DNA from: Ignavibacteria bacterium | GTDB taxonomy: Bacteria; Bacteroidota; Ignavibacteria; Kapaibacteriales; UBA4661 | Direction: 5' to 3' | DNA: 64,000 bases | Assembly: GCA_013298775.1 (NCBI GenBank) | Contig: JAAFIV010000004.1 | Location: 124,001-188,000, forward strand | Shown here: piece after piece, positions 14,622-55,504 of the stretch | Position numbering within the stretch: position 1 is the stretch's first letter | How the letters are laid out: every line of letters begins with the position of its first letter | The notes under the pieces: generated by a model | Told to the model about the DNA's origin: nothing | Databases searched by the model: none | The model's input: the letters and a program-made list of their open reading frames with translations, nothing else | Made by a program: the position numbers and the translations under genes

Positions 14622-17600
14622 ATGATGTTTTCTCGTGTTTCTTTGGCGATTATTTATTTGATGATGTTGCAAAGCCTCATCATTCCTTGTGTTGCACAAA
14701 ATTTATTACACAATACTACCCCAAAAACCTTCCCACCTCGCTTCGACCGCATCACCAGCAAACACGGGCTTTCCAGCAATAGCATTACCTGTTTTGTGCA
14801 GGACAAGCGCGGTTTTCTGTGGATTGGAACGCATCACGGCTTGAACCGTTTCGACGGCTATCGCTGCAAAACATTCTTTGCAGACCCCGCAAAACCTCAC
14901 GCTCTCATCAACGACGACATTATGGACATCCTCGAAGACCGCGCAGGAACACTCTGGGTGGCGACGCACAATAGCGGCGTTGCGGCATTTCAGCCCGAAA
15001 CCGAGACCTTTACACACTTTCGGCACAATCCCGCCGACCCGCGTAGTCTCAGCGACGACAACGTTCACTCGCTCACGCTTGATTCTACGGGTTGTCTGTG
15101 GGTGTGTACCTACAATGGCGGTTTGAACCGTTTCGATGCTGCAAGCCTCACCTTTACTTGCCTCAAGGGAAAATTTCGCGGCGGCGAATGCGGCACCAAC
15201 GAGTGTTCGCTCACGGTCGTAGCAACGGCGCGGGATGGCGCGTTGTGGGTGGCTTCCGAAGGCGGCGGCACGTACCGCATTACCTTTCCCAAGCTGCAAC
15301 ATTCTGAGCAAAAATTCTCCCTGAACAGCGCATCAATACAAGCCTTTGCACAGGCTTCGACTTCGACAATCAATATGAAATCGAACTTCACCTCCGCGCT
15401 TGCTCCCTGTGCTGGAAGCGGCGTGTGGAGCGGCTCCTGGGGTGGCGGCATTGCGCACATTTTTCCCAAAGTAGAAGGTGGAATACGGCGCGTTCTTCGG
15501 AGCAGAACAAGCCCAAACACCGCACAAACACTGAGCGAGAGCGGTTTGTCGAACAACACTGTCAGCGCACTTTTTTGTGAAACCGATGGTACGCTCTGGA
15601 TAGGCACGTGGGGCGGCGGCTTGGTGCGCTACAAGCCGAATGCTGTGCCTGAACATGAGGCATGGAGCGAGGAATGGACAACATTCCAGCATGACGAATC
15701 GCATCCCGAACCGCTTGGCAGCAACTTCATCACCGCCATTTACCGCGACCACAATGGCATTTTGTGGATTGGCACTGAGAACGCGGGCGTGTCGGTGTGG
15801 AATCCCCACAAGCCGCAATTTACCGTGCTTAGGAGCAATTCATCATTGCAGAATTCCGTTCAGAATCAGCAAATATCAAGCCTGTATATGCACGACAACA
15901 TGATTACTGCCTTGGGAGGCAGTAGCGGTGCGGGTGTGTGGATTGGCACCATGAATGCGGGTTTGCAGCATTTCGACCCCGCAAGCCGCATTATTACTCA
16001 TTTCCCAAGCAATCTTTCCAATCCCAACGCCCTCAGCCACCGCTTTATCCAAGCACTTGCCGATGATGGAAAAGGGACGCTTTGGATTGGGAATGATAGC
16101 GGCGGCGTGAGTATGGTGCAATACGGCTCAACACCTGATAACATCAAGGCGCACAAGACATTTCATCCGCGCTCGTGGCGTATCAAAACGAATAATCCGC
16201 GTCAGTATTTGGAAACGCCTGGACTTGTTGAGGCAATGTTGCTGGATTCAGCACAAGCATCTTCGGGCGAAAAACAGCCACAAGCCGCTCTCTGGCTTGC
16301 TCTCACGGGAACGGGTTTGGTTCACTCGGCAATGTTTCGAGATTCGGCAACGGCGTTTATTCCACAGACACGTTCACCACGAAGTAAGCCTGGACCTGCT
16401 TCCACGCGGGTTATGGCAATGCTGCGCGACACCGATGGCGCGTTTTGGCTTGCAACCGACACGGCGGGTTTAGATAAATTTTACCCCGAAAGCCACACCG
16501 TTACACACTTTCGGCATCGTGCAAATGACACCACATCTCTTAGCAGCGACCAAGTGTCGTGCTTGCTCAAAGCAAGGAATGGTGCGCTGTTTGCGGGAAC
16601 GGGATTGGGTTTGAATCGTTTAGATATATCTCATCCAAATAATTCTGGTAAAAATTCCCCAACACAAGCATTTACGCGCTTTACCGTCGAGGACGGTCTG
16701 CCCGATAACGGCATTATTTCAATGCTCGAAGATGCGAAGGGTCGGCTCTGGATTGGCACAAATAAAGGCTTGTGCAGGGTGAGTTTTCCAACCCCGACGA
16801 CGCTCCAAGTCCGCGTCTTTACTGAAGCGGACGGCATTGCGGGCAATGAGCATACACGCGCTGCCTACCGCGCCCCCGACGGCACAATGTACTTTGGCAC
16901 ATCAAGCGGGCTGACGATATTTCACCCCGATTCGATTCGGGAAAATCCGAATCCTACAAGGCTCGCACTCACGGGCTTGAGGAAATTCAACCGCCTCGTA
17001 CAACTCGACTCCAGCGTAGCATATATGCGGGTTCTGCCGCTTTCGTACTTGGAAAATATCATCACGGTCGAGTTTGCCGCGCTGGGCTTTACGGTGGTGG
17101 AAAATCAGCAATATTCCTACAAAATGGACGGCTTCGACCGCGACTGGATTGCCGCCGGAACAAGTAGGGAAGCCACGTACACGAATCTTCGCGGTGGCGA
17201 GTATGTGTTTCGCGTTCGTGCGTTGCAGGGCGATGGCTCGTGGAGCAGCGAGGAAGCCCGACTCACGCTTGCCGTAACGCCACCCTTCTGGGAAACGGCG
17301 TGGTTTCTGACCTTGCTGGCAGTGAGTGTTTTGGGCGGCGTGATTGCGCTCACCTCCTTTGTGGCGCGGCAACGCCTAGCGGTGCGGGTGCAGGAATTGG
17401 AGCGGGAGCGGGCAATTCAAATCGAGCGCGAGCGAGAACGGGAGCGGATTTCGGCGGATATTCACGATGAAATTGGCTCTGGGCTGACGCACATTGCGAT
17501 ACTCAGCGAAGTTATCAAACAACAAACCTCCAGTGAAATGCCCTCGCGCCCGCACGTGGACACGCTTTCGGAGACAGCTCAGGACGTGGTAAAATCTATC

Positions 17601-18083
17601 GGCAACATCGTCTGGGCATTAAATCCCGACCACGACGAACTCCCGCATTTCCTCGCCTACACGCGCGAGTATTCCTCGACGTTTTTGCGCAGCGCGGGCA
17701 TTCGCTATGCTATTCGCTTTTCCGACGAAGCTCCGCCATACCGCTTAAAATCACTCATTCGGCGGAATTTATTTTTGATTGTGAAAGAATCGTTGAATAA
17801 TATCGTAAAATATGCGGATGCAAAAAATGTGGAAATTATCTTTTCGTTTCCAGAAGAATCTGCTCCCCACACAAGCAATGAAGCGGCAAACACGGCGATT
17901 GAATGTACACTCGTTGTGCGCGACGATGGTTGCGGGATGTCGTCGCTGGAAGGTCGGAAATTCGGACACGGCATGAAAACAATGCGTCGGCGGGCAGAGG
18001 AAATTGGCGGGACGTTTTTGTTGGAAAGCGAGCTTGGCAAAGGCACGGTGATTACGGTAAGGTTTGCGCTGGAAGGCGTGTAA
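14622..18083 (+). CDS. Reg_prop/Y_Y_Y periplasmic sensor histidine kinase (HisKA_3)
   Basis: 1153 residues. After a signal anchor come about fourteen propeller repeats (about 45-790; recurring GxLWIGTxxGGLxR pattern) forming two periplasmic beta-propellers, a Y_Y_Y domain (about 825-885, GGEYVFRVRA), one transmembrane helix (about 892-914), a short coiled coil, a HisKA_3 dimerisation domain with phospho-histidine in ISADIHDEIGSGL (about 948), and a HATPase_c domain (N box KESLNNIVKYADA, then DDGCGM). It resembles Bacteroides hybrid sensors that read periplasmic oligosaccharides, but carries no receiver or AraC domain. The NarL-type regulator 178 bases downstream is the likely partner. It is divergent from susC, which suggests control of that cluster. 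Confidence 0.92.
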   Translation: MMFSRVSLAIIYLMMLQSLIIPCVAQNLLHNTTPKTFPPRFDRITSKHGLSSNSITCFVQDKRGFLWIGTHHGLNRFDGYRCKTFFADPAKPHALINDDIMDILEDRAGTLWVATHNSGVAAFQPETETFTHFRHNPADPRSLSDDNVHSLTLDSTGCLWVCTYNGGLNRFDAASLTFTCLKGKFRGGECGTNECSLTVVATARDGALWVASEGGGTYRITFPKLQHSEQKFSLNSASIQAFAQASTSTINMKSNFTSALAPCAGSGVWSGSWGGGIAHIFPKVEGGIRRVLRSRTSPNTAQTLSESGLSNNTVSALFCETDGTLWIGTWGGGLVRYKPNAVPEHEAWSEEWTTFQHDESHPEPLGSNFITAIYRDHNGILWIGTENAGVSVWNPHKPQFTVLRSNSSLQNSVQNQQISSLYMHDNMITALGGSSGAGVWIGTMNAGLQHFDPASRIITHFPSNLSNPNALSHRFIQALADDGKGTLWIGNDSGGVSMVQYGSTPDNIKAHKTFHPRSWRIKTNNPRQYLETPGLVEAMLLDSAQASSGEKQPQAALWLALTGTGLVHSAMFRDSATAFIPQTRSPRSKPGPASTRVMAMLRDTDGAFWLATDTAGLDKFYPESHTVTHFRHRANDTTSLSSDQVSCLLKARNGALFAGTGLGLNRLDISHPNNSGKNSPTQAFTRFTVEDGLPDNGIISMLEDAKGRLWIGTNKGLCRVSFPTPTTLQVRVFTEADGIAGNEHTRAAYRAPDGTMYFGTSSGLTIFHPDSIRENPNPTRLALTGLRKFNRLVQLDSSVAYMRVLPLSYLENIITVEFAALGFTVVENQQYSYKMDGFDRDWIAAGTSREATYTNLRGGEYVFRVRALQGDGSWSSEEARLTLAVTPPFWETAWFLTLLAVSVLGGVIALTSFVARQRLAVRVQELERERAIQIERERERERISADIHDEIGSGLTHIAILSEVIKQQTSSEMPSRPHVDTLSETAQDVVKSIGNIVWALNPDHDELPHFLAYTREYSSTFLRSAGIRYAIRFSDEAPPYRLKSLIRRNLFLIVKESLNNIVKYADAKNVEIIFSFPEESAPHTSNEAANTAIECTLVVRDDGCGMSSLEGRKFGHGMKTMRRRAEEIGGTFLLESELGKGTVITVRFALEGV

Positions 18084-37922: not shown

Positions 37923-39809
37923 TTAGCGCATCATCGTTCGCTCGACGCGGAATAAGCCTAAAAGCTGGCGCAAATCTGCCATAAGCGTATCAAGCTGTTC
38001 GCTTGCGCGGGCAATGCCAGACGACGTTTCGGCGGTACTTTGCGCCGATTGCGACATGGCATCAATACTTTTAGCAATTTCCTCCGTCGAGCCTGACTGC
38101 TGCTCGCTTGCGTCAGCGATGTGCCGTACCATTGTTTGTACTTCTTGCGTTCCGTGAATAATTTGCTCTAGTGCGCTTCCCGCCTGATTTGCCAGCTCAA
38201 TTGCTGCGTCTCCTTGCGCACTACTTTTGCGAATAGACTGCACTGCCGCTTCTGAGTCGCGCTGAAGCGTTTGAATCATGCTTGAAATCTGCTTCGTGGC
38301 TTCGGCGGTGCGCTCGGCGAGCTTTCGCACTTCATCAGCAACGACCGCAAAGCCGCGTCCCGACTCGCCTGCGCGGGCTGCTTCAATCGCTGCATTCAAG
38401 GCAAGCAAGTTTGTTTGGTCAGCAATTTCGGTAATCACCTGCACCACGTCGCCAATTTCTTGGCTAGAATCGCCCAAGCGCATAATCACGGTTGCGGAAT
38501 GTTGAATTGCATCGCCTATATCCCGCATCGTTCCTAATGTTTTCTGCAATACCTCACCGCTTTGCAATGCCTGACGGCGATTCTCTTCGGCTACATTCGA
38601 GGTGCGAAGCGCATTCTGGGCATTTTCGGCAACGGTTTGTGCCATTTCTTCGATAGCAGCAGCAAGCTGTGATGTCTGCGAAGATTGCTCCTCAGCGGTG
38701 GCTGCAAGCTGCATCGTTGCTGAACTGATGTGCCGTGTGCCAGTATTAACGCGGTCGGTATTTGCTAAAATTTGCTGCACAACTTTATTCATCTGCTCAA
38801 CGCTTGAATTAAAGCCCTGAAAGAGCATTGCTACATCGTCGCCAGCGCGTTCTGCTTGCACACGCACGGTCAAATCTCCACCAGAAAAAAGACTCATTTC
38901 CTGCATAATCGCGCCCACACTGCGGTTCAAGTATTCGCCCTGTTCTTCGGCGGTGGATTGCGCCTGAACCGCTTGTTTGCTGGCTTGCTCGGCAATAATC
39001 GTTTTTTCTTTCGCATCCTCGCTCGCTCGGCGAATTGTTGCCACCATTTGATTAAAACTTGTTCCGAGTTTGCCCACTTCATCGCGGCTGCGCACCTGCA
39101 CATGCGCGTTCAAATCGCCCTTGATAACGCTGCGTGCGGCTTGTTCCAAATCTTTGACGGGATTTGCAATGAGCCGCGCAATAACAATCGCCAACAGCAC
39201 GACAAATACTCCATTCACCACGATACCAATAATGCTGTGCCGCAAAGATTTTTCAAAGAATTCATCGCTGAGTTCGGCTTCTTTATTGCCACCTTTTACG
39301 TTGAACTCGACCAACTCATGCAATACACCACGAATAATGTCATATTGCGCACGGGCTTTGTTGAGCATGACATCTCGCGCCACGTCCACTTGCCCTGCGG
39401 AGAGAAGGTCCTCGGCTTTTTGAACGTCAGCATAGTATTCGTCTGTATGCCGCTTTAACTCTTGATACTTTTCGGTTTCCCATCCCTGCGTAAGGAGAGC
39501 CGCATACGCTGCTTCGTGCTTGATGTATTCTTGGTGTGCAGTATCGGCTCGGTGAATAAAAAAATCACGCTCGGCGGAATCAGCATACATCAGGCGTACA
39601 GCTGCCACGCGCCCAATAGCTACCGCCGATTGCATAGAGGTAATACCCGTGATAGACGGCATCCAGTTAGTAGTAATATTTTTTGTGTACTGATTCATCT
39701 GCTGCTTATCTCGGTAGGTGAGATAATTCAGCACCAATGCGGCGACGAGGGCAAGCGCGAAAACCGAAAGAATTTTAAAACGAATAGTGCGATTCAAAAA
39801 CCACGACAT
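37923..39809 (-). CDS. methyl-accepting chemotaxis protein
   Basis: 628 residues. TM1 (about 10-29), a four-helix-bundle periplasmic sensor (about 30-190, 4HB_MCP type), TM2 (about 190-213), a HAMP domain (about 214-268), a second HAMP-like segment (about 295-345), and the MCP signalling domain (about 360-620). The hairpin tip [20 protein letters not shown] and EVRKLAERT are conserved. There is no C-terminal CheR-docking pentapeptide. No che genes are nearby, so its array partners are elsewhere. A homologous signalling domain ends the sensor at 51599-55369. Confidence 0.93.
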
Positions 39810-44917: not shown

Positions 44918-47071
44918 TTAAAACTTCACCGTCAAACCAGCAAAGAAGCCGCGTCCGGGAAAAAGCGGCAAAGAATTAATACGCCGCGTAATATCAGGAA
45001 TCCAGACCGTCTCAGCATTCAAGAGGTTTTCGGCACGGAGATTCACAATAAAATGCGGCAGATTTGACAAGTCTGCAAGTTCGGTAATATCAATGTTCAC
45101 CTGTGCGCTCAGTAGGTGATACGCCACAACGGTAGGATTCACAAATGCTGGAGCCATCCCGCCGCCGCCAGGCATCGCAGGGCTATTTGGCGCAGAATTG
45201 TAAATGTTAAAGACGCTCGCCGCAAAGCCGTTTTTCATATCGTAGCCAATACCTGTTTTTACCATGAACGATGGCATCAGCGTTATGTCTCGTGCCGTTA
45301 TCTCGGCGTAGTTTGTTTGATATGAGAACGAACCCAAGAAATAGAGTTCATTGATCGGGGCGTATTTGCCCTCAAACTCTGCGCCTTCCATTTGAAAACT
45401 GAGGAAATTTGAAACCACGTTTTCAGGCGGTCTTCCAGGCGGTGCAACATTTCGCGGTGCAATCAGGTTTGTTTGCCATGAACGGTAGTATACAGCCGCA
45501 AGGCGCATGTTTCCTTGCTCCCAGAAGATTTCACCGTCAATGGATTCATTCGTTTCGGGGCGCAAACGCGGATTTCCCACGCCATTCATAGAAAGCGTAA
45601 AATTCTCAAATCCTGCCGCCGCCCGAAATGCCTGACCGTAGAAGGCTTTCACGCCAAGTTCGGGCGTAATGTTCCAAATCACCGCAACACGCGGCGACAC
45701 AGCGGCATCAATGTTCACGGCTTTGTTTAACTGCGCTCCAGCGCGAATTTTCAGGTTCTCAAGCGGTTGCCACTGCGCTTCGGCGTACGCACTCCACCAA
45801 ATTTGGTTGTATTCCGGCACAAGCACATTTCCGCTTGTTGTTATTGTTCCTACGCCACTCCGACTATGCACCAAGCCACCAAGCAAGAATTGAAGCGTCT
45901 TTTGAGGCTTGTAGGCAAGGGTAATTTCACCAAGTGCGTCGTTGGAGCGCAGTATTTCCGAATGGCGTGTGTCATAGACGTTCAGCGTTCCATTCACCGA
46001 AGCCGAGAGAACCTCGCTAAATTCATGGGTGTAGCCAATGTCAGCGTTGATGGTACGATTGGTGAGGTCGAATTGCGAGCGTGTTGCCTGCGGACCAAGC
46101 GTTGCTGCCGTGTAATCCGTTGCAAAAATTTGTGCCTTGAATCCGCCCAACGACGCGGATAAAAAACCACTGAGCGAGCGTTGGAAAGGATTGTACGTGA
46201 TAGTGCGCTGCGGACGACCTGCTTGCGGCTGCAAATTAAATGGCACATTCCATGCTGTATTATTGTTGTTGTATAGCAAACCCGCATCAATCCTACCATC
46301 GCCAAGCCCTGTTGCAAAAGATATTCCTGCATTTGCCGATGCCGTAAGTGTGCCGTTTCCGCCACCAAGCGCATGAATACTGACTTCGTTACTTATTTTG
46401 GTAATGATATTTACCGTTCCTGTAAACGCATTTGTACCGTATAAAACTGAACCGGGACCGCGTAAAACCTCAATCCGTTCCACCGATGCAAGAGGAAAAC
46501 CATTCAGCACTTGAGCGTAAATTCCACCAAAAAGCGATTCTCGAAGCGGGCGACCATTGATAAGAATGAGGATATGTTTAGCTGTGATGGAGCGGTACAA
46601 ATCGCCGCGCATCGTCATATTTCCTTGATACAGCGTTGTTGCAAAAAGTTGTATCGAAACGATGTAATCAAGCGCGTCTGTAAGTGTTCGTGCGCCAAAA
46701 AGTTGTAGTTCTCGTGCCGTGATGACGGAAATCACGCCAGGCGCGTCGTTCAAGGTTTCATTGTTCTTGGAAGCAGTATTGACGAGGAGTTTGAGCAATT
46801 CATCCACCGACGATACGCCGACAATGCTAGAAAGTTCGGTTAATTCTTCCAGTGATAATGCGCTTAGTTCCTCGAATTTCATTGCCAAAATTTGCTTGCG
46901 CGTGGGTTTAGTCTGGAAGGCGCGTGCGGGCTTGTCTGATGCCATATTTGCTTGTATTGGCAAGGATTCTTGCGCTTGCGCTTCATGCGCAAACGATATT
47001 GCCAAGACAACGATTGCAAAGACTGAAAGCATAGTATTCATGCGGGTAATAAGCGAAGTAAGAATATCCAT
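44918..47071 (-). CDS. TonB-dependent outer-membrane receptor paired with YfiR
   Basis: 717 residues. A signal peptide (ending near AQAQ, about residue 33) is followed by a helical leader with LSLEELTELSSIVGVSS and VNTASKNNETLNDAPGVISV, then the plug (about 95-210, IEVLRGPGSVLYGTNAFTG) and a barrel ending in TVKF. It belongs to the branch whose leader carries repeated S-L-E-E-L motifs and which often accompanies YfiR proteins. The ligand is unknown; siderophore or cofactor uptake or signalling are possible. Its ATG overlaps the YfiR stop (TAATG), with AGGAGG just upstream, so expression is coupled. Confidence 0.9.
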   Translation of the reverse strand: MDILTSLITRMNTMLSVFAIVVLAISFAHEAQAQESLPIQANMASDKPARAFQTKPTRKQILAMKFEELSALSLEELTELSSIVGVSSVDELLKLLVNTASKNNETLNDAPGVISVITARELQLFGARTLTDALDYIVSIQLFATTLYQGNMTMRGDLYRSITAKHILILINGRPLRESLFGGIYAQVLNGFPLASVERIEVLRGPGSVLYGTNAFTGTVNIITKISNEVSIHALGGGNGTLTASANAGISFATGLGDGRIDAGLLYNNNNTAWNVPFNLQPQAGRPQRTITYNPFQRSLSGFLSASLGGFKAQIFATDYTAATLGPQATRSQFDLTNRTINADIGYTHEFSEVLSASVNGTLNVYDTRHSEILRSNDALGEITLAYKPQKTLQFLLGGLVHSRSGVGTITTSGNVLVPEYNQIWWSAYAEAQWQPLENLKIRAGAQLNKAVNIDAAVSPRVAVIWNITPELGVKAFYGQAFRAAAGFENFTLSMNGVGNPRLRPETNESIDGEIFWEQGNMRLAAVYYRSWQTNLIAPRNVAPPGRPPENVVSNFLSFQMEGAEFEGKYAPINELYFLGSFSYQTNYAEITARDITLMPSFMVKTGIGYDMKNGFAASVFNIYNSAPNSPAMPGGGGMAPAFVNPTVVAYHLLSAQVNIDITELADLSNLPHFIVNLRAENLLNAETVWIPDITRRINSLPLFPGRGFFAGLTVKF

Positions 47072-47646
47072 TACTGACCTCCTTCGACAATCGTTGCGAG
47101 GCGCAGTAACTCGTCTTGAATGCGAAGACCAGCATTTTCGGCTGCTTTTTTGTTGATTTCAAATTTCTTTTCGCCACTTGCTAAAATACTGATATGGCTG
47201 CCCTCCCGCGCCATTCCTGTTCCTTTGGTAATTATCAGCACGGGCTTTCCGCGCACAGCATCGAGAATGCGAGCAAGTTTTTTGCTGTATTGGTCGGGGA
47301 GAAAAATAATGTGGCAATTCCCCAAACCCGTGATTTCATCGAAGAGACGGACTTTTATCGTTTGCTCGCCAACTTTTTTTCCCGTCAGCGAACGGTCAAT
47401 TTGCGCAGCAATATCGGGACTGCCAACAACGCCAATAATGTATTCTCCATTTGTTCGCTCTGCTGGATAACGCACCATTCCTGTCATTTTGAGGATATAC
47501 AATGATTCAAACAAGCCTTGCTGACCCGCAAGGTCAATACCCGACGCGCTCGAAAAGACCAGCATCACGAGTGAAATAAAGCACCATCGCCTCAGACGTA
47601 AGCCTTGACGCACGATGGCAGCAAATATGGAGGAAAAGAATTTCAT
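47071..47646 (-). CDS. YfiR-family periplasmic protein (DUF4154)
   Basis: 191 residues. A hydrophobic signal (about 20-42) is followed by the YfiR fold: YILKMTGMVRYP, YIIGVVGSP, then CHIIFLPDQYS and VLIITKGTGMAREGSHI. In Pseudomonas YfiR restrains a diguanylate cyclase (YfiN) from the periplasm. No YfiN-type gene is next to it; instead the gene overlaps a TonB receptor by one base. Some family cysteines that make disulphides are absent (only one, in NCHII, remains in the core). What it regulates here is unknown. Confidence 0.8.
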   Translation of the reverse strand: MKFFSSIFAAIVRQGLRLRRWCFISLVMLVFSSASGIDLAGQQGLFESLYILKMTGMVRYPAERTNGEYIIGVVGSPDIAAQIDRSLTGKKVGEQTIKVRLFDEITGLGNCHIIFLPDQYSKKLARILDAVRGKPVLIITKGTGMAREGSHISILASGEKKFEINKKAAENAGLRIQDELLRLATIVEGGQ

Positions 47647-51598: not shown

Positions 51599-54500
51599 TT
51601 ACATCAACGAAAACCGCGCAACCTGCTCTTGCATTACGCTTGTGAGGCGGCGTAAATTCTCGGCTGCTTCGGCAATATCCGCAATGCCGGCGGCGGCGTG
51701 CTGTGTGGCAGTGTGCATGGATTCAATACTTTTCAGGCTTTCTGCGCTTTTTTCGGTTTGTGCAAGGCTCATTTCCGAGATACGCCTCATTTGCTTTTCA
51801 TTATCATTCGCGCTTGAAACCACGTGTTGGAGGGTTATTCGGGTCTTTTCAGCAAGATGTACGCCTTCATTCATTTGTGTTGCTCCTTCGCCCAGCGAGC
51901 GCACCGCCGAAGCAATTTCCTTTTGAATCGTCCGCACCGTCGCGCTAATTTCCTTCGTAGCGGTGGCGGTGCTTTCGGCGAGTTTCCGCACTTCGTCCGC
52001 AACCACCGCAAAGCCTCGTCCTTGCTCGCCTGCGCGGGCGGCTTCAATCGCGGCGTTCAGCGCGAGTAAGTTTGTTTGGTCGGCGATGGTTTGAATAGTT
52101 TCGGTGATGTCGCTAATGCGGTCGCTGAGAGAAGCAAGTTCGGCAACATTTTTGGAGGAAACGTCCACAAGCCGCGCAATATCGTGGATTTTCTGTACCG
52201 TTTGGTTCACAATCGTATCGCCTTCTTGCGCAATTTTCCGTTCTTCATACGCAAGCAATAATGAGGCTTGCACGGTGGCAGCATTTTCTGAAATTTCCTC
52301 AACGCCCAAGCGCATCATTGCTGCTACATCGCCCGCATTGCCTGATTGCTGCTCGGCAAAGGATGCCAGCGACAGCGCAGAACGATTGATATTCTCACCC
52401 GACGAGGCTACTTCGGAAGCCGCATTTGCCACACCACCGACGATAGACCTCATCATTGCTATTGTTCGATTGATGCCGTCGTATAATTCCCGAATATCCT
52501 GATATGCAGAATCGTACTTGTTTTGCGGCAAGGTTTGTGCGCTTATTCCACCAGAAAGCTCGTCATTACTTGCTTCCAGACGAACAGATAAATTCCCCTG
52601 CGCAACTTCATCCAATGCTTGCAAAATATACTGAACGCTTTCCGAAAGGTACCTGCGCCGTTCTTCGGCGTTTTGCTGCAATGCTTCCGCAGAATGGCGT
52701 AATTGCTCGGCTTCTGTGAGTGCGCGTTCTGTGCGGTCTTTTTCGGACGTGATTTCTCGTGTACGAGCTTCCACAAGTGCCAAAAGCTCTTCTTCCCGCT
52801 TCAAGGCTTGTCTCTCGCGGTATCGCACTGCCAGAAAACCAAGCGCAATCACGCAAAGTAGCACAAAGCCGCGAAACCACCACGTTTGATAAAAATACGG
52901 TTTCAATTCAAACGAAAACACCGCGCCTTCATCGTTCCAAAGCCCGTCGTTATTGGCGGCGCGAACGCGAAACGTATAGCTGCCGGGCGCAAGATTCATG
53001 TACACTGCTTCGCGGCGCGTCCCCACGTCTTGCCAATCCTCATCCGCACCGTCCAGCTTCACGCGAAAATGTACCCGCGATGGCGCGAGATAACTGAGCG
53101 CGGCGTAAGAAATCGTAAAACGCTGCGTTCCTGCTGCAAACGTCACAGGTGCGAACAAATTCGCTGTATCGCTCTCGGTGATGCAGCGTTCAATCTTCAC
53201 GGGCGGCGGCAGTGTATTCATTTCAAGATTTTTCGGGTCAATACCCACAATCCCGCGCAAGGTCGGCATCCACAGCACACCGCTCCGCGCCTTGCACGCA
53301 AGCGATGGTGCGCTTACTTGACTACTTTTCATGCCGTCCCAGCGTCCGAAAAGGCGGGCTTGAAGTGGCGTGATTGCTTGCTTCTGACCTTGCTTCTCAC
53401 CTTGTGCGTTTTGCGCTTTTGCGTCAGCAATCGCATTCAAATCTTTTTTTGCAACACGTTGAATCCCGTCATTGCCACCAAGCCAGAACATTCCTTGCTC
53501 GTCTTCGAGAATGGTATAGACGGACTCGCTCTGCAAGCCATCTTTCAGCGTGAATGCCGTTAAAACCTTGTTCTTCCAGCGATAGAATCCTGCGTTGGTC
53601 GCAATCCACGCCGTGCCATCCGCGTCTTCGTAGGAACTCATCACCACATCGGAGGCAAGACCTTGTTTTGTGGTCAGATGCTCTGTCATCGCGCCATTTT
53701 CCCACCGACACCAGCCTTTCCCTTCGGTAGAAAGCAGTAACGACGCGCCTTTCCCACGAACAATTCCAATAATGGACGTTCCTTTCAACACACCTTTTTC
53801 ATCAGTCAAAACGCGGATAGAATCGCCTCGCATCGTTGCCAGCCCAGCATTTGTGCCAATCCACAACGTTCCGTCCTCTGCTAGAAAGAGCGTTCTGACG
53901 CGGTTTTCGGGTAATCCTTGTGCCGTTGAAAATGTTGTAAACTTCCCATTTTGCAAGCGGCACAACCCCTGATATGTTCCCAGCCAGACCGTTGCACCAT
54001 CAGGGCTGCTCGTGATAGTGCGCACCATGTTGTCGGGCAAGCCGTTTGCTTTGGAAAAATTAGTAAAAGAGAATTGCGTTGAAGAAGATTGCGTTGAAGA
54101 AGATTGCGTTGAAGAAGAACCCCCAACACTTGGCGTGAAGCGGCTTACACCTTCCGCCGTTGCTACCCAGAGGTCGCCGTTTCGCGCTTCGTGGATGCTG
54201 TACGTGTAGTCGTCCACCAAGCCTTCTTGCGCGGTGTAGGTGAGGAATTTCCCGTTTTTGAAACGATTTAATCCCCCGCGATACGTCCCAACCCAGAGAC
54301 TGCCTTCTTTGTCGGTCATCAGCGACCACACTTGATTATCGGTCAAGCCATCTTTTTTGGTGTAATTATCGAACACCGCATCAATGCTCGTGTTTGAAAG
54401 AGAGCGTTTGCGCGAAAGTCCGCCCATAGAGCCAATCCAGAGCGTTCCTGCTGCGTCTTCGGCGAAGGCTTGAATGCGATTGTCTAAGAGACCGTTTTGC

Positions 54501-55369
54501 GTGGTGAGTTGTGTGAGCGAGCGAGTATTTATGCCATCTGGAGCGGCAAACACGCCTTTGCCGAGTGTGCCAATCCAGAGCGTTTTGCGGGAATCGTGGA
54601 AGAGCGTTTTGATGGGAGTTTTGAGCAAAGAATCAGCAAGAGGAATTCCTTGAAAGACTGGTGTAATCTTGCCTTCACGCGCTGCGAACAAACCTTGCGC
54701 CGAGGCTATCCACAAAAGCGAGGACGTATCCAGCGCGAGGCTGTTAATGGGCGCGACAGGAAAGCCTTGTTCTTTGCCAAAGGCAGTAATTGTGCCGTCT
54801 CGCAGCATACATACGCCTTTGCGCGTGCCAATCCACAGCGTTCCATCCTGCGGATTCACGGCAAGCGACAACACCACATCGCTCGGCAAGCCTTCTTTTA
54901 CGCCAAAAGTCGTGAATTTCCCGTGTTCGTAGCGGAGTAGCCCGCCGCCATTTGTGCCTATCCACAAGGTAGGATGCGGGTTTGGGGCGTTTATATTCTT
55001 TGTTTCGGCAATACACCAAATACCATTGTTCTTGATACCTTCCGAAACAGCTTTACTGAAAACGGTAAACTGCGTCCCGCTAAAGCGCACCAAACCATCA
55101 AACGTGCCAAACCAAATGTAGCCGTCAGCAGCTTGAAAAAGCGTTAGGACGCTGTTGGAAGGTAAGCCTTCGTCGCGTGTCCACGTGTCGTGGTGGTATT
55201 GCGTGATTGCTTTGCTTGGATTCGGCGCGGTTCCACGCTCTTCTTGGGCGAGTATTGGCAAGGCAGAAAGAAACATTACAGCAAAAAAGAGCGATACGCT
55301 TTTTTTTCTGTTAATGGCTCTATTGCTTACGTTGAAGGATTGTTTCTCTCTTCTTGAATAGCTCATCAT
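51599..55369 (-). CDS. Reg_prop/Y_Y_Y propeller sensor fused to a chemoreceptor signalling domain
   Basis: 1256 residues. Signal peptide (about 25-45, ending PILAQ); about thirteen propeller repeats (about 60-690, pattern GTLWIGTxxG); a Y_Y_Y domain (about 745-815, [16 protein letters not shown]); one transmembrane helix (about 828-848); a coiled coil with a HAMP-like segment (about 905-940, [13 protein letters not shown]); and an MCP signalling domain (about 980-1256) with the conserved tip [20 protein letters not shown] (about 1107). The sensory part matches that of the histidine kinase at 14622, but output is to CheA/CheW arrays instead of phosphotransfer. No kinase domain is present. The start is one of two adjacent ATGs (55369/55366). 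An in-frame 15-bp repeat lies at 54073-54117. Confidence 0.88.
54073..54117 (-). repeat. 15-bp tandem repeat in the propeller-chemoreceptor gene
   Basis: ATTGCGTTGAAGAAG occurs three times in a row, coding SSTQS-type units in a loop between propeller blades. Confidence 0.95.
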
Positions 55370-55504
55370 TGCGAAATCTCCACACACAAATATATTCCAC
55401 CTTAAACCAAAATTCTCACCAACAATTGTGTGCGAATCTGCAAAAAGTTTGAGAGCAGTGCAACGATTTTTCCTGAAAAAATATTTCAGCAACTACTCCC
55501 AAAT

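Follow-up and report, generated by a model that had tools for sequence, protein, structure and literature searches.

The window analysed here is a stretch of 64,000 nucleotides from the genome of an Ignavibacteria bacterium. At 51599–55492 its minus strand carries a single open frame encoding a propeller-MCP, P0001, which is 1297 residues long when read from the TTG at 55492. The ATG at residue 42 (M42, 55369) suits the signal peptide best, and we place the gene at 51602–55369 (−), with the stop codon at 51599–51601. The protein comprises, in order, a signal peptide, a 14-blade twin propeller, a Y_Y_Y domain, a membrane helix, a coiled coil, a HAMP-like stretch and an MCP hairpin. Pfam profiles match Reg_prop (1.1e-49), Y_Y_Y (1.7e-14, residues 801–862) and MCPsignal (1.1e-40, residues 1082–1260), all with scores far above the curated cut-offs; the MCPsignal match is full length, at 139.7 bits against a cut-off of 34.6. 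Both halves of the protein have relatives in the PDB by sequence, 4a2l at 6e-48 and MCPs with values to 1e-22. The initial annotation had described a propeller sensor with a Y_Y_Y domain and one membrane helix, feeding an MCP domain with an intact tip, and had called for a profile search of both parts. Pfam, hydropathy and the structural model bear this description out, and the Reg_prop, Y_Y_Y and MCPsignal profiles were all matched above their cut-offs.

Two hydrophobic stretches are evident in P0001. One is the signal peptide (residues 64–83; 55244–55303, −), placed by hydropathy and with its cleavage site set by eye, and the other is the helix that follows the Y_Y_Y domain (about residues 870–892). 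Between them lie the propellers, at about residues 95–775 (53168–55210, −), delimited by the Reg_prop matches, the model and the match to BT4663, and the Y_Y_Y domain at residues 801–862 (52907–53092, −). An AlphaFold model built from 14 sequences has a mean pLDDT of 88 and a pTM of 0.81. Foldseek aligns this model with the solved ectodomain of BT4663 at 7.5e-44, and a VIA alignment covers nearly the whole length (Z 35.9, 697 residues, rmsd 3.2); among the VIA matches listed, only BT4663, BT3049 and BT4673 extend beyond a single propeller. The propeller reading thus stands, and comparison of the model with BT4663 replaces the earlier count of "13-odd" repeats with 14 blades plus Y_Y_Y, predicted to form one periplasmic unit of the BT4663 type.

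The single transmembrane helix, located by the model and by hydropathy, spans residues 871–892 (52817–52882, −). It leads into a putative coiled-coil linker (residues 893–947; 52652–52816, −), judged from sequence pattern and alignment, and then into a divergent HAMP-like stretch with an insertion (residues 948–1018; 52439–52651, −), which aligns with the clearer HAMP-like stretches of relatives and has no Pfam HAMP match. The MCP signalling hairpin occupies 51602–52438 (−), and its tip, the region of CheA and CheW contact, is intact by alignment (residues 1139–1169; 51986–52078, −). From the glutamate of the hairpin turn to the C-terminus there are 142 residues, with no C-terminal tail. Receptors of this genome fall into two length classes: a long one, in which the turn and the end of the last helix lie 140–142 residues apart (20 heptads a side, 40H), and a short one, with paired 14-residue deletions flanking the tip, which fits 36H. 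By turn distance and by alignment P0001 is a 40H receptor, a length common to most receptors of the genome. P0001 and two orthologues (L080 and L102) lack any stretch matching the methylation consensus, as tested with a strict pattern, and may therefore adapt in an unusual way or not at all. The consensus is present in receptors of the C27 type; the strict pattern is, however, also missing from about half of the other receptors in the genome, and its absence from P0001 is therefore a weak hint.

Could the fusion be an artifact? A frameshift or assembly join between the two parts had been named as a result that would refute the annotation, and none was found. Orthologues from three independent assemblies carry the same fusion: it is complete in L080, from a Kapaibacterium (86% best-segment identity), and in L102 (68% identity), and it continues as far as the contig end in L078 (67% identity). 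Sister groups likewise keep the sensor–MCP join. Values of dN/dS are 0.08–0.13 for the sensor, 0.06–0.13 for the hairpin and 0.16–0.19 for the linker (one linker comparison was saturated and gives no value); all parts of the protein are under purifying selection. Because orthologues of independent assemblies share the fusion, a chimera or frameshift is refuted, and a decaying pseudogene is ruled out by dN/dS values well below 1 throughout a single open frame; we give these explanations practically no credence. P0001 is an intact fusion in which a sugar-sensor-like outer domain, as in Bacteroides regulators, is followed by the signalling part of a chemotaxis receptor.

Two known groups of proteins are related to P0001, each by one of its halves. 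With hybrid two-component sensors of Bacteroides of the BT4663/BT3049 type (PDB 4a2l/4a2m, 3v9f) it shares twin seven-blade propellers, a Y_Y_Y domain and one membrane helix. The output of those proteins is HisKA, HATPase, receiver and HTH, whereas behind the membrane helix of P0001 Pfam finds only MCPsignal; identity to BT4663 is 21–26%. With 40-heptad MCPs it has in common the MCPsignal domain, the intact tip and the 40H length, but it differs from them in its 800-residue propeller ectodomain, in place of Cache, 4HB or PAS, in its divergent HAMP-like stretch and in the missing methylation consensus. An ordinary 4HB-HAMP-MCP receptor is encoded in the same window, at 37926–39809 (−). Closer in design are other propeller-MCPs (C27, C56, G073, G254, G373, G393, G508 and L096/L108), which combine propellers, Y_Y_Y, one helix and an MCP hairpin as P0001 does. 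Their front ends, unlike their architecture, belong to different lineages, and the hairpin of L096/L108 is shorter and distant; since the front-end lineages differ, at least two joinings are implied.

The genome of P0001 itself offers a broad series of such sensors. Three of its 30 Y_Y_Y sensors are propeller-MCPs (P0001, C27 and C56); the other 27 carry nucleotide cyclase domains (3), SpoIIE phosphatase domains (2) or, for the rest, histidine-kinase-type domains (HATPase_c in 20). The same twin-propeller sensor thus stands, within one genome, before kinases, nucleotide cyclases or SpoIIE phosphatases (L033, L026, L028, L030, L044 and L048). In the front-end tree, the C56 receptor is placed among kinase and cyclase sensors. 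Forcing all three receptor front ends together costs a delta lnL of 239 (AU p 1e-47), as computed under a simpler model on 29 rows from which long branches had been left out, in place of the 53-row tree; a single joining for all three is rejected for C56. The front end of P0001 is sister to that of a histidine kinase of the same genome, C18 (L131), in a branch with L131/L094 that has support of 96–97. C18 ends in HisKA/HATPase rather than a hairpin and is about 34% identical. This placement is not decisive, because a single origin of the P0001 and C27 front ends has an AU p of 0.146 (0.384 on the larger front-end tree). The hairpin tree sets the three receptors apart, with one origin not rejected (p 0.135, for P0001 plus C27, and 0.23). 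These trees show that within this genome the sensory part was joined to MCP outputs on at least two occasions; three separate joinings are likely but not proven. The idea of domain swapping within one genome, raised in the initial annotation, gains support from the trees and from the varied outputs of the paralogues. The kinase chosen there for comparison, a Reg_prop/Y_Y_Y histidine kinase at 14622–18083 (+), proves by Pfam, trees and identity to be a distant paralogue: the sensory part of P0001 is 32% identical to it, against 38% to C78 and C27, and descent of the P0001 front end from it is ruled out.

We also asked how widely the architecture occurs, using an 11-row profile running from Y_Y_Y to the end of the hairpin. 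Scoring was confined to the best few candidates per genome and may have passed over weaker cases. Full-length matches are found in all eight genomes of the genus. Outside it, the 391 genomes of the class yielded same-family G345 (which ends at a contig end), G073, G373 and G254, and a 395-genome sample of the phylum yielded G393, G397 and G508, of another family; reading five of these proteins confirmed their propeller repeats. The propeller-MCPs at L214:4616-8284 and L218:3212-6859 lie in near-closed genomes of 2.9–3.4 Mb (G393 and G508). A further, distant hairpin type occurs in other bacteria (L096, L108 and L109), and elsewhere the same front end precedes GGDEF, hybrid kinase, Ser/Thr kinase and SpoIIE domains. 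The motif YFYQTWWF is frequent among the relatives found because it served as a search pattern. By these searches the architecture is rare outside the genus and recurs in other Bacteroidota. The open-access full texts searched contained no description of a propeller-type chemoreceptor; the architecture is not common, nor is it already characterised in the literature covered. Every module of P0001 is already known and the combination is rare; we do not claim priority.

The remainder of the genome (5.19 Mb, 99% complete, from an uncultured relative of Candidatus Kapaibacterium) is rich in chemosensory genes, with 51 MCPsignal places, 30 Y_Y_Y places and five CheW-domain proteins. One CheA is clustered with CheB, CheZ, CheY and CheW (contig C74) and a second with CheR and CheB (contig C9), and a CheV-like protein is encoded at C5. 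CheA, CheW and CheR, which had been suggested as a check, are hence all present, along with CheB, CheZ and CheY. A CheZ-like protein at L071:4838-5977 has a C-terminal end, SQDDIDALFNSK, that resembles the peptide with which FliM docks CheY, although no gene for flagellar export was detected. Neither flagellin nor FlhA had a match in this 99%-complete genome, each with a control positive in 4 known genomes, and the T2SSE ATPase (PilB/PilT) had none either, its control being positive in 14 of 14 known genomes. The set therefore conforms neither to flagellar chemotaxis nor to a type IV pilus chemosensory system. Of the chemotaxis-type or pilus-type array envisaged in the initial annotation, the former agrees with the Che proteins found; the latter lacks support because no PilB/PilT-type ATPase was detected. 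SprA of the type IX system is present, so gliding is possible; the search for GldM_1st, also without a match, is uninformative because its control gave no true positive.

In our view, P0001 is a functional transmembrane chemoreceptor with a periplasmic sensor of the BT4663 type, a reading to which we assign a probability of about 0.7. For BT4663, a scissor-like movement of the Y_Y_Y domains has been proposed (PMC8534201). By analogy, a ligand in the periplasm, probably some solute such as a fragment of a polymer, would alter the twin propellers of P0001 and cause the paired Y_Y_Y domains to shut like scissor blades. The signal would then pass along one helix in each chain and through the coiled coil and the HAMP-like stretch to a four-helix hairpin. 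This hairpin would enter the CheW/CheA array together with other 40H receptors and set the activity of CheA, and hence the level of CheY-P. Against this reading stand the failure to detect an output motor, the missing methylation consensus and the lack of a Pfam HAMP match; so bulky a twin-propeller dimer may also be hard to pack into an array of the usual kind. The original suggestion that an MCP output is driven by a Reg_prop/Y_Y_Y front end is supported, and CheA, CheW, CheR and CheB are all encoded in the genome. Such a protein would have arisen by module shuffling, in which one type of sensor came to stand before kinases, cyclases and phosphatases and, at least twice, before MCP hairpins; the repeated meeting of sensor and MCP output supports this.

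Where the signal ends is a separate matter. With none of the usual motors detected, the candidates for the final output are gliding by the type IX system (SprA) and a target other than motility. P0001 may feed a chemosensory pathway of alternative function, acting for instance in second-messenger, surface or developmental control, and have no part in steering movement. We regard this as a serious contender at somewhat less than even odds. It would account for the lack of matches to flagellin, FlhA and the type IV pilus ATPase, cyclases and SpoIIE phosphatases are the outputs of several paralogous sensors, and 40H receptors elsewhere also serve alternative-function pathways. It fits less well with a complete, chemotaxis-like set of CheA, CheZ, CheY, CheR, CheB and CheV, with 51 receptors, a number typical of motile cells, and with SprA, through which gliding is possible. 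A bolder suggestion, which we consider rather doubtful, is that a cell without flagella or type IV pili uses some 50 chemoreceptors, three of them of the twin-propeller type, to control gliding by the type IX system or some other motor as yet undescribed. PorX, a CheY-like regulator, binds PorL, a motor protein of the type IX system, and has been proposed to act like CheY (PMC5005315), making a coupling of CheY-P to gliding conceivable.

The initial annotation went further, proposing that P0001 is a glycan sensor like those of Bacteroides and directs the cell toward glycans whose use genes a paralogous kinase induces. The predicted ectodomain fold is indeed that of BT4663, a heparin sensor, and the genome has four SusD-like matches. 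This model nevertheless seems to us improbable: no glycan-use genes were recognised beside P0001 or its orthologues, identity to BT4663 is low, some Reg_prop/Y_Y_Y sensors have no known ligand, and the kinase in question is only distantly related. A glycan ligand for P0001 would follow from resemblance only. About 4 kb downstream of the gene, the window encodes a TonB receptor together with a YfiR-like protein (44921–47646); in L102 (1-4846) the orthologue lies next to, and in divergent orientation from, genes for a YfiR/HmsC-like protein and TonB receptors.

Whichever output applies, our favoured reading of P0001 as a functional chemoreceptor raises the question of what 51 chemoreceptors and two CheA proteins act upon in a genome where neither a flagellum nor a pilus motor was detected. 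If they steer gliding or another such motor, the machinery under the control of chemotaxis arrays would be one that is not known to respond to CheY. Finally, a fold that ranks among the largest of bacterial periplasmic sensors occurs here with four outputs in one genome, namely kinase, cyclase, phosphatase and chemoreceptor, a natural series for studying how the movement of the Y_Y_Y domain crosses the membrane.
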